IMG/VR virus record: IMGVR_UViG_3300049846_000073
Coordinates: 1-26,098 of that record
Length of the DNA: 26,098 nt
From: a virus
Reading direction: 5' to 3' (one strand)
Shown here one piece after another: positions 4,397 to 26,098 of the stretch. The stretch's first letter is position 1, and each line of letters begins with the position of its first letter. The notes beneath the pieces are model-generated. The model saw nothing but the letters and a program-made list of their open reading frames with translations, had not been told where the DNA came from and did no database searches. The translations under genes and the position numbers were made by a program.

Positions 4397-5227
4397 CTAG
4401 TTAGACACAGAGATGCTCAGCTTCTTACGATTAAGAAGATCGCCAAGAAGTTTCATCGGGTTCTCTGCTTGACCCAATGCACCAGGCTCATCGTTACCGT
4501 TGTATTGAGGAGAGGTTTGTGGTTGCTGTGGTTGTGCAGGGGCAGCAGGTTGCGGTTGCTGTGCTCCAGGATGTTGCCCTGTCTGATAACCGAAGGTCCG
4601 TTGCATCAACGGATTGTAGTTACCACCAGTGGCTTTGACATACTCTTCAGAGCCTTTATAAAGACCCTTACCGCCATCACGATAGGAAGATGAGGAGGGT
4701 TGAGGGGCATTAGGACGAGGTGCTTGTCCTACTTGAGGAGCGTAAGCAGAGGGTTGAGGGCGAGCACTAAGGATGCCATTCTGTAGTTGAGTAGCAGAAC
4801 CAAAGGCTGAGGGTCTAGCATGAACAGGAGCACCAATAGCAGGGCTACGGAACTTGACTTGCTGACCACCAGGAACATAACGACCAGTATCAGCAAGAGG
4901 TACTTCAGGTTTAACACCACCTTGAGGGCGTTGCTTCTCTACATAGGCAAGGTCATTCTTGAGCTTCTTATCAACTGCAGCACCACCTCCCCAGATACGA
5001 GAGACTTCAGCTTGTTTAGTCAGGCGCTCTCGCTCGTTATTAAGGTTACGATTACGAATGTCCCTTCTAAACTGCTCACGAACTTGAGCTTCTTTTTTAG
5101 TTTTAGCTTCAGCGTCCTTCTGAGCCTTAGCCCTTTCAGCTTTCTTTTTTTGAATTGTAGAGCCAAGCTTGTCACTTTGCCGACGAAGCTCTTCTTGCCG
5201 TTTCTTCTCGGCAGCAGATAGTGCCAT
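4397..5227 (-). CDS. Unknown 276-aa coiled-coil and Pro/Gln-rich protein
   Basis: The protein is not recognised. Residues 1-75 are highly charged (Lys, Arg, Glu, Gln) and predicted by eye to be a long helix or coiled coil. Residues about 100-250 are rich in Pro, Gln, Gly, Ala and Tyr, including QQPQPAAPAQPQQPQ, and look disordered. The C-terminal MKLLGDLLNRKKLSISVSN could form a short amphipathic helix. No enzyme motif or membrane segment is visible. The ATG lies 2 bases after the HNH stop and lacks a clear Shine-Dalgarno, which suggests coupled translation. The layout (helical N-terminus, disordered linker) is shared with the following 427-aa gene, so the two may work together. Confidence 0.8.
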   Translation of the reverse strand: MALSAAEKKRQEELRRQSDKLGSTIQKKKAERAKAQKDAEAKTKKEAQVREQFRRDIRNRNLNNERERLTKQAEVSRIWGGGAAVDKKLKNDLAYVEKQRPQGGVKPEVPLADTGRYVPGGQQVKFRSPAIGAPVHARPSAFGSATQLQNGILSARPQPSAYAPQVGQAPRPNAPQPSSSSYRDGGKGLYKGSEEYVKATGGNYNPLMQRTFGYQTGQHPGAQQPQPAAPAQPQQPQTSPQYNGNDEPGALGQAENPMKLLGDLLNRKKLSISVSN

Positions 5228-24420: not shown

Positions 24421-25494
24421 TCAGACTGCCTGCAGTTCGATAGCTGCAGCAGGGTTCAGGGTGCCAACGCCCATGGCAAGACGACCAACGATGATGTCAC
24501 CTTGGTACATCACGCTCACATCACCAGAGGTGGTTTGAACTTGAGGACCAATGGCTTCCACAACAGCAGCAGCATCTTTGTAGTAGATGAGGCCACAGGG
24601 GTTGGAGAAGTCACCGCTGTAGTCATTGTTCTCACCGTCCACACGGGCAACGCTACCAGCCTTGAAGGGCAGGTTGTTGGAACGACGGATGCTGATACCA
24701 GCGATCTCATAGAGACCTTCACCGCTGTTCAGGCTGCCACCTTGGGCACCGAAGTCACGGTTGAGGATGTTGGTATCGACCTGAGAGATCAGGGCATAGT
24801 ATTGACGAGGGGACAGCACAGCAGTCCGACCATTCTTAGGCAGGTTCTTCTCATCGAGAATAGCTGCAGCTTCAAAGAAGGCATCGACAATATGCTGGGC
24901 GCTGTACTCATTGCCAGCACCAAGCTTGATGATGGAACCACCGGGCTCTGCAGGAACTGCAGGAGTCACAGGGGAGGTACCAGCAGAGGCACCGATCGGA
25001 TGAGCTTCACGGGCAGCCTTAGCGATGGTGCGGAAGATCTTCTTGTCATAGGCTTCAGCCAGGGCGTAGCCAATCTTCGAAGCGATCTCACCACGCAGGG
25101 AGTAGTGAGCAAGGGTCTCATCAAGGTCATAGACGAAGGCGCTGGACACCAGCAGGTCATCCATGATGATGGTCTTCTCTGCCACCGGGGGATCCCCAGA
25201 ACCCATGATCGGAGTTCCGGGTTGATGATACGCCGCATTCATACGGCCCGTGAAAATGAATTGGGCTGCTTTGGCGTTCTTCAGTTGACGGCTTTGAACA
25301 GTGCCCTTAGCAATACAGGCAGCTTCATAAGCCTTGAACATCTCCCCAGAAAATATCTTGAGATATGTCGCATATTTAGCATCGTAGTCAGCACCACCTT
25401 GGGTGAGGCCAAGACCGGGATGCTTGTTAATGGAACCGACGGAAGTGATAGAAGTGTTCGGTGCGGTTCCGGGGAGAGGACTCCAGGTTGTCAT
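24421..25494 (-). CDS. Major capsid protein (T7 gp10-like)
   Basis: This 357-aa protein forms the icosahedral shell. It matches the T7 gp10A type: N-terminal SITSVGSINKHPG, DAKYATYLKIFSGEMFKAYEAA, KNAKAAQFIFTGRMNAAYHQPG, EKTIIMDDLLVSSAFVYDLDETLAHY, EIGYALAEAYDKKIFRTI-like helix (SKIGYALAEAYDKKIFRTI), LSPRQYYALISQ, and the C-terminal GDIIVGRLAMGVGTLNPAAAIEL. Length is close to T7 gp10A (345 aa). The ATG at 25494 fits the family start, but no Shine-Dalgarno precedes it; the leader is U/C-rich. No sign of a T7-style frameshift extension was noticed. It is preceded by a structured leader and followed by two small genes and a terminator. Confidence 0.96.
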   Translation of the reverse strand: MTTWSPLPGTAPNTSITSVGSINKHPGLGLTQGGADYDAKYATYLKIFSGEMFKAYEAACIAKGTVQSRQLKNAKAAQFIFTGRMNAAYHQPGTPIMGSGDPPVAEKTIIMDDLLVSSAFVYDLDETLAHYSLRGEIASKIGYALAEAYDKKIFRTIAKAAREAHPIGASAGTSPVTPAVPAEPGGSIIKLGAGNEYSAQHIVDAFFEAAAILDEKNLPKNGRTAVLSPRQYYALISQVDTNILNRDFGAQGGSLNSGEGLYEIAGISIRRSNNLPFKAGSVARVDGENNDYSGDFSNPCGLIYYKDAAAVVEAIGPQVQTTSGDVSVMYQGDIIVGRLAMGVGTLNPAAAIELQAV

Positions 25495-25526: not shown

Positions 25527-25540
25527 TCTCAAGCTTGAGA
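25527..25540. other. Perfect 14-base palindrome
   Basis: TCTCAAGCTTGAGA reads the same on both strands and lies 33 bases before the capsid ATG. As RNA it has too little loop to fold without opening central pairs. As DNA it could bind a dimeric regulator. On the plus strand it is followed by a short T-run, but no plus-strand gene ends here, so a plus-strand terminator is unlikely. Confidence 0.4.
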
Positions 25541-25591
25541 AATTTTTTGCGCTATATTTTTTATGGGTGTCTGTCTCTCCAGACTGTCAAT

Positions 25592-25626: not shown

Positions 25627-25629
25627 AAT

Positions 25630-25675
25630 ACCTGAGGGAGGACTTGCACCTCCCAGTCCGCTTAACGGATCAGGT
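25630..25675 (-). other. Compact three-way junction RNA candidate
   Basis: Three perfect stems close on each other. P1 pairs ACCTGA (25630-25635 on the plus strand) with TCAGGT (25670-25675). Inside it are GGGAGG/CCTCCC (25636-25641 with 25649-25654, 7-base loop) and TCCG/CGGA (25657-25660 with 25666-25669, 5-base loop). Only two bases (25655-25656) are unpaired at the junction. On the minus strand P1 includes the last sense codon and stop of the 56-aa gene. It does not fit a canonical tRNA. Function unknown; candidates are a processing site, transcript stabiliser or regulatory element. Confidence 0.55.
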
Positions 25676-25840
25676 CGCTACCTTCTCTGCACCCTTAGGG
25701 CTAAGCTTCTTACACTGGGCAAGAGAGTTAGCTTTGTTATAGGGTTCAGGGTAGGCAGTACGAAAGAACTCATCACCAGTAGTCTTCACTACATAGTCGA
25801 TGGTTACACCAGTAGATTTGGGATTGTATCCAAGTGCCAT
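25670..25840 (-). CDS. 56-aa protein between psbA and capsid, unknown
   Basis: I do not recognise this protein. It begins MALGYNPKSTGVTIDYVVKT, continues with TGDEFFRTAYPEPYNKANSL and ends with a Lys-rich KKLSPKGAEKVAT. It appears soluble, with no membrane segment, so it is not a high-light-inducible protein. The ATG at 25840 lies 4 bases after the psbA stop; a TTG at 25852 would add four residues and overlap psbA. There is no clear Shine-Dalgarno. Its position suggests expression with psbA, so it could be a photosynthesis-related accessory gene or a small virion protein. Its stop codon lies within the three-way junction. Confidence 0.7.
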   Translation of the reverse strand: MALGYNPKSTGVTIDYVVKTTGDEFFRTAYPEPYNKANSLAQCKKLSPKGAEKVAT

Positions 25841-25844
25841 AGCA

Positions 25845-26098
25845 TTAACCAATAGCAGGAGCTTTCAAAGCGATGGGAACAATGTTGTTAGCTGCCAAGT
25901 CCAGAGGGAGGTTGTGAGCGTTTCTTTCATGCATCACTTCTAGGCCAAGGTTGGCACGATTAAGAATGTCCGCCCAAGTATCAACTACTCGACCTTGACT
26001 ATCGAGAATAGACTGGTTGAAGTTAAGCCCGTTCAGGTTGGTCGCCATAGTGGCAACACCAAGAGCGGCGAACCAGATGCCGACAACAGGCCAAGCCG
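25845..26098 (-). CDS. psbA: Photosystem II D1 protein, 3' part (cut by window edge)
   Basis: D1 is the reaction-centre protein that turns over fastest in light; phage copies keep photosystem II working during infection. Only the last 83 codons are present; the gene continues past the right edge. The segment AWPVVGIWF...[16 protein letters not shown] and [28 protein letters not shown] is unmistakable. By homology it retains the oxygen-evolving cluster ligands His332, Glu333, His337, Asp342 and the Ala344 cleavage site, followed by a 15-residue processed tail ending APAIG, as in Synechococcus and Prochlorococcus. Unusual residues include Leu for the common Phe in HNFPLDLA and Ala-Thr-Asn where A-F-N is usual. 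Psb genes in cyanophages come from hosts. Confidence 0.96.

Follow-up and report, generated by a model that had tools for sequence, protein, structure and literature searches.

A conserved tRNA-like element upstream of the capsid gene of T7-like cyanophages is a candidate signal for mRNA processing

We analysed a virus sequence record of 26,098 bases, referred to below as the window, in which all genes around the studied site lie on the minus strand. In the coding direction, the 3′ end of psbA, encoding photosystem II D1 (25845..26096; phrog_182, E 2.5e-31), is followed by a 56-aa ORF (25670..25840, an ORF call), for which Pfam and PHROG searches returned no matches, and then by the major capsid protein gene (24421..25494; PF21703, E 6.9e-73; phrog_267, E 8.2e-76). 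A folded domain that resembles part of a tRNA is found at 25630..25675 on the minus strand, about 130 nt from the capsid start. An earlier note had described these 46 bases as a three-way junction, and its stems of 6, 6 and 4 bp with two unpaired junction bases (CU) were present as claimed. Read as RNA, the reverse complement of 25630-25675 begins with the 5′ strand of an acceptor-like stem, ACCUGA (25670..25675), which holds the stop codon of the 56-aa ORF (UGA at 25672-25670), as the note had also stated. A side hairpin, UCCG-UUAAG-CGGA (25657..25669), replaces the D and anticodon arms and is followed by CU; in related loci this hairpin is kept, with variable sequence. The T-arm, GGGAGG-UGCAAGU-CCUCCC (25636..25654), carries a 7-nt T-loop, and the 3′ acceptor strand, UCAGGU (25630..25635), completes an acceptor and T-stem stack of 12 bp. 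Next comes a discriminator-like A at 25629, whose spacing to a following UUG equals that of the real tRNAs found at this site in other phages. The window therefore shows the geometry of a tRNA gene, with 6+6 bp in a coaxial acceptor/T-arm, the 7-nt loop UGCAAGU, a single A and then UUG.

The note had taken the junction as the complete structure. However, the junction is only half, the 5′ half, of a conserved element which extends to about 25569. The second part is stem P4 (25591..25627, minus strand), composed of a C / AYAM internal loop and a UACG-capped hairpin, and is supported by conservation and covariation; its R1 match (E 7e-13) follows by construction, as the window sits in the model seed. 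The third part is a hairpin, GUCUG-GAGAGA-CAGAC (25569..25584, minus strand), of which the GAGAGA loop is constant in related phages, with a changing stem. From the spacing shared with real tRNAs, we infer that host RNase Z would cut after the discriminator-like base, between 25629 and 25628, and P4 begins 1-2 nt past this predicted cut.

We then examined the folding energy of the region. The junction on the minus strand folded at -21.3 kcal/mol (z = -2.6), with 2 of 200 shuffles as stable, and a 266-nt context gave z = -3.6 (0/200 shuffles). The plus strand of the junction folded almost as well, and neither the structure nor its strand can be established from energy alone. ARAGORN detected no tRNA, that is, no complete cloverleaf, in the window. 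Rfam searches of the window, with tRNA, tmRNA, twister-sister and PhotoRC among the families covered, gave no family match at gathering and lax cut-offs and just one chance-level match at E up to 10, in agreement with the note, which had recognised no known RNA family; below-threshold matches to RAGATH-25 and tRNA-Sec occurred in relatives only. Three other candidates were rejected. By inspection, the sequence that comes after the element is AUUGAC, with no U-run, which does not fit an intrinsic terminator. A twister-sister ribozyme, considered for what we took to be a likeness of the GGUGCAAGUCC loop, had no Rfam match. A promoter of a phage single-subunit RNA polymerase was dismissed, as the sequence was not reiterated in the 26-kb window and the capsid-upstream region of Syn5 was not reiterated in Syn5.

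To compare the element across phages, we assembled 80 contigs with related capsid genes, the hits of a scan for the 3′ core that ignored genomic context, and the annotated cyanopodoviruses. In an alignment of 54 sequences built without structure, the T-stem was 99.4% paired, with two-sided changes at five of its six pairs, and the P4 hairpin was 100% paired, while pairing in the lower P4 stem (74.8%) was held down by length variation. The covariation score was 0.480, compared with 0.160 for shuffled alignments (0/500) and at most 0.152 for slid pairings; the signal was lost when partners were slid by 1-3 columns. For the acceptor stem, the single-sequence shuffle test was too weak and a pooled swap control was chosen: 3′ strands paired best with the upstream region of their own phage, with a mean score of 4.97, against 3.79±0.14 when strands were swapped among phages (0/5000). 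A MAFFT alignment of the 3WJ subset misaligned the acceptor strand and was left out of the counts. These results show that acceptor stem and T-arm are both conserved by base pairing, as in a minihelix, and the compensatory changes that the note had set as its test were found in the T-stem, the P4 hairpin and the acceptor stem. A chance fold could appeal to the modest energy z-score and to the folding of both strands; it is refuted by the covariation, and also by the fixed spacing and recurrence described below, and we consider its probability negligible. The junction is thus confirmed, at the level of comparative analysis, by covariation, by its unchanging geometry and by its repeated occurrence across dozens of phages.

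The P4 core was located upstream of the capsid gene in 196 of the 204 loci that hold the 5′ part of this gene, in 168 distinct versions, and a capsid gene was also present on 106 of the 120 contigs retrieved by the core pattern alone. Most loci lacking the core were truncated contigs or variants outside the strict core definition. We also observed, by inspection, an apparent inserted gene upstream of the capsid gene in L024, where no element was found, and a similar insert in L003, possibly a homing endonuclease, that parts the core and element from the capsid gene. Upstream of P4, one of four structures was found. Class A, the type of the window, has a UGCRA T-loop and a side hairpin (55 loci). 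Class B (35 loci) has a UUCRA T-loop and, in many cases, a D-loop-like UGGUG stretch. Class C is a hairpin with CACCUCRRWGUMGGA (95 loci). The fourth group, detected by ARAGORN, consists of five bona fide tRNAs from four lineages: Trp in L056 and L069, Asp in L076, a degenerate one in L201, and Gly in cyanophage NATL1A-7, which is annotated in GenBank too. The loop of most class C elements is unlike the canonical T-loop, so that their putative recognition by tRNA enzymes is less obvious. This strikingly constant loop (e.g. L097, L007, L048) resembles a stretch of the 23S rRNA peptidyl-transferase centre, GGCACCUCGAUGUCGG.

The real tRNAs end directly before the same UUG as the mimics, and the two are exchangeable at this junction. 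We examined 69 distinct elements of classes A and B. In 55 of them, 12 nt and one further base separate the T-loop from UUG, and in the other 14 the distance is one base longer, although the capsid-site TTG positions were picked within a short range and the shuffle-controlled genome scan described below is the cleaner test. The corresponding distance in the five ARAGORN tRNAs was 13, 13, 13, 13 and 14. The T-stem and outer stem usually trade pairs as 6+6 or 7+5, with a total of about 12, which is as long as the acceptor/T-arm stack of a tRNA; some outer stems have 4 bp only. In class C, the distance to UUG was 11 nt in 79/81. Based on sequence, fold and these comparisons, the element is a conserved tRNA mimic that combines an acceptor-like stem with a side hairpin and a T-arm closed by a T-loop of 7 nt. 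Before the capsid gene of CRP-125 (L214) and HTVC019P (L357), we also saw hairpins that resemble P4, have a C / ACAA internal loop and lack a tRNA-like part. As these are non-cyanobacterial T7-like phages, P4 may predate the tRNA-like part.

The note had placed the structure before the capsid gene, which holds, but it missed further copies between early genes of related phages. We built a covariance model from capsid-site sequences, with the early-region copies outside the seed, and it matched 25 of 26 phage records, as a rule at the capsid element, with Roseobacter phage CRP-125 as the exception. The additional copies carry the tRNA-like domain with the same spacing to UUG and a different downstream hairpin (loops AMUGA), and most of them lie in the early region. 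They were found in P-SSP7 (624, 1021 and 2580), S-SBP1 (609, 951 and 1347), P-SSP10 (35952 and 35262, minus strand), S-CBP2 (1299), NATL1A-7, S-RIP2 and P-SSP2, mostly before early genes. The junction in the window has a near twin in S-SBP1, the copy at 1347 (CCTGATCCGTTCAAGCGGGTGGCAAGGTGCGAACCCTTGCCCAGGTATTG). We compared the extra copies with the annotation in four genomes, and there they were intergenic and sense-oriented; in S-SBP1, the first copy overlaps a start annotated at 649. A strict scan gave 1-3 matches per genome, exactly one in the window (the junction itself) and none in 120 genome shuffles, and a slightly looser scan gave no match in T7 or pelagiphage HTVC019P. ARAGORN found no tRNA at the early-region copies. 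A pattern scan for early-type copies mixes in ordinary tRNAs, and we kept the non-tRNA matches with a 7-bp hairpin. We observed similar non-tRNA T-arm elements in early regions of other phage contigs, at about 1052 in L297 and at two places in L279. Both contigs carry integrase and MarR-like ORFs, L297 also has a large RNAP-like ORF, and one of the two is very AT-rich. The tRNA-like device may reach beyond the known cyanophages.

The extra copies bear on whether the elements are relics of tRNA genes or integration (att) sites without an RNA function. Cyanopodoviruses do carry an integrase, and real tRNAs do occur at the site. However, such remnants would not account for strong compensatory changes across lineages or for several diverged sense copies per genome placed between genes, and a 24-mer of the window matched none of 84,980 prokaryotic genomes. 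We regard this explanation as very improbable.

We also considered whether P4 is the true signal, as an RNase III site or a sequence like a phage RNA polymerase promoter, with the tRNA-like part as an accessory. T7 RNase III sites contain an asymmetric internal loop, to which the asymmetric internal loop of P4 was likened. Moreover, the 5′ strand of P4 is loosely like the Syn5 promoter, and CRP-125 has a P4-like core without the tRNA-like part. However, the early copies keep the tRNA-like domain and UUG and have another hairpin in place of P4. In S-CBP42, P60 and SS120-1, P4 is shifted about 100 nt downstream, and the T-arm element, or minihelix, retains its own discriminator and TTG (TTA in SS120-1). 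In addition, the P4 stems are free to vary in sequence as long as pairing is compensated, which is not promoter-like, and no second copy is present in the window. A leading role for P4 is therefore quite unlikely.

We next examined the small ORF upstream. A mechanical ORF check, in which some frames may be spurious, showed that a stop codon overlaps or abuts the 5′ acceptor strand in 23 elements of class A and 14 of class B, so the overlap seen in the window is shared by many other phages. In 33 of 39 class A elements, the acceptor strand is where a conserved small ORF of the YRGV type ends. In several phages, an Rfam Glutamine-II riboswitch precedes this ORF. Such riboswitches lie upstream of the capsid element at L205:895-948, L210:810-863, L040:2667-2719 and L097:543-626. 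In P-SSP7 and S-TIP37, the riboswitch comes after psbA and is followed in turn by a small ORF whose end falls at the acceptor stem of the tRNA-like element. This layout of riboswitch and small ORF matches the Downstream-peptide arrangement (PMC2864571). Ribosomes that finish the small ORF on this strand would open the signal, as the note had proposed; such unfolding is compatible with the sequences and is speculative.

The position of the stop codons could also mean that the element stays uncut, either blocking 3′ exonucleases as a tRNA-like 3′-end protector or acting on translation termination and re-initiation. The very stable fold and the nearby next start codon at the early copies point the same way. 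However, this leaves the fixed position of the discriminator and UUG unexplained, as well as the replacement of the element by real tRNAs, which are functional only when excised, and the distance of about 130 nt to the capsid start is too far for re-initiation. We judge an uncut element unlikely.

Taken together, the results favour the reading that the element mimics a tRNA and serves as an intercistronic signal for mRNA processing, at which tRNA-maturation enzymes of the host cut, to which we assign a probability of about two in three. The link to the capsid message proposed in the note is best read in this way, as mRNA processing, with the cleavage itself predicted; the tRNA mimicry had been missed. 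Acceptor plus T-arm hairpins are cleaved by RNase P (PMC11143913), and cyanobacteria encode both RNase P and RNase Z (PMC10989914). Host RNase Z would cut after the discriminator, possibly with RNase P acting at the 5′ side. The 3′ cut by RNase Z is more likely to be the productive one, because a 5′ cut by RNase P would remove the stop codon of the small ORF. After a single cut, the mRNA on the psbA side would carry a tRNA-like fold at its 3′ end, and the capsid mRNA would begin with 5′-UU and P4, a stable stem almost at once. The folded ends would shield both mRNAs from exonucleases and RNase E, a proposed role that fits the finding that P-SSP7 raises host RNase E during infection (PMC10989914). 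More speculatively, transient unfolding by a terminating ribosome might adjust the ratio of uncut to cut mRNA. Using the Syn5 RNAP promoter sequence (PMC3950665), we found exact copies in Syn5 at 4929 and 44797 only, and none before the capsid gene, so the 5′ end of the Syn5 capsid mRNA is plausibly made by processing. The signal would fill the role that belongs in T7 to RNase III sites and internal phage promoters. A wider proposal, that T7-like cyanophages punctuate long transcripts with degenerate tRNAs rather than with RNase III sites or internal promoters and that ribosomes finishing the ORF set the release of capsid mRNA, is tentative, and we hold it to be rather doubtful.

The element can be compared with several known systems. 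As in mitochondrial tRNA punctuation by RNase P and RNase Z, intergenic tRNA shapes would mark the cuts, and some phages carry a real tRNA; unlike there, the phage mRNA element is mostly a mimic without an anticodon arm, and its cuts are predicted. MALAT1 mascRNA and the TYMV 3′ end are likewise acceptor/T-arm mimics at an RNA end, which tRNA enzymes recognise as pre-tRNA and cut, whereas the phage element is unrelated in sequence, intercistronic in DNA phages and multicopy, with a stop codon in the acceptor strand. T7 similarly has structured early intercistronic sites and a device that creates the 5′ end of the capsid mRNA; however, T7 RNase III sites are long irregular duplexes and the cyanophage element has tRNA geometry, and T7 has the phi10 promoter before the capsid gene, where no phage promoter was seen in Syn5. 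Minimal RNase P model hairpins (acceptor, T-stem and T-loop) share the 12-bp acceptor/T-arm architecture, while the phage element is natural, has a side hairpin, and carries 3′ UUG and no CCA. In open PMC papers, we found no earlier description of tRNA-like or capsid-upstream elements in cyanophages. If cut as predicted, the element would show how T7-like cyanophages use host tRNA-trimming enzymes to produce a distinct capsid mRNA at a site with no observed phage promoter, and would join two known ideas, tRNA punctuation and T7 mRNA processing, in abundant marine viruses. The partitioning of psbA and capsid mRNA would become testable at the single-nucleotide level, and the requirements of RNase P and RNase Z could be studied on a natural series that runs from real tRNAs down to minimal mimics.

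Finally, we identified a perfect palindrome, TCTCAAGCTTGAGA (25527..25540, minus strand), in the capsid 5′ UTR of the window, about 37 nt before the capsid start. A palindrome of at least 10 nt was present in 88.6% of 167 distinct capsid 5′ UTR regions, compared with 10.9% of shuffles, and comprised 70 different sequences. Palindromic symmetry was retained as the sequence changed and extended through the centre, more than a plain hairpin calls for; RNA dimerisation is one idea that may explain it. Some capsid leaders carry GTGGGATAGACCACAA (e.g. L205, L206, L211), which resembles the T7 phi10 transcript start (GGGAGACCACAACGG).
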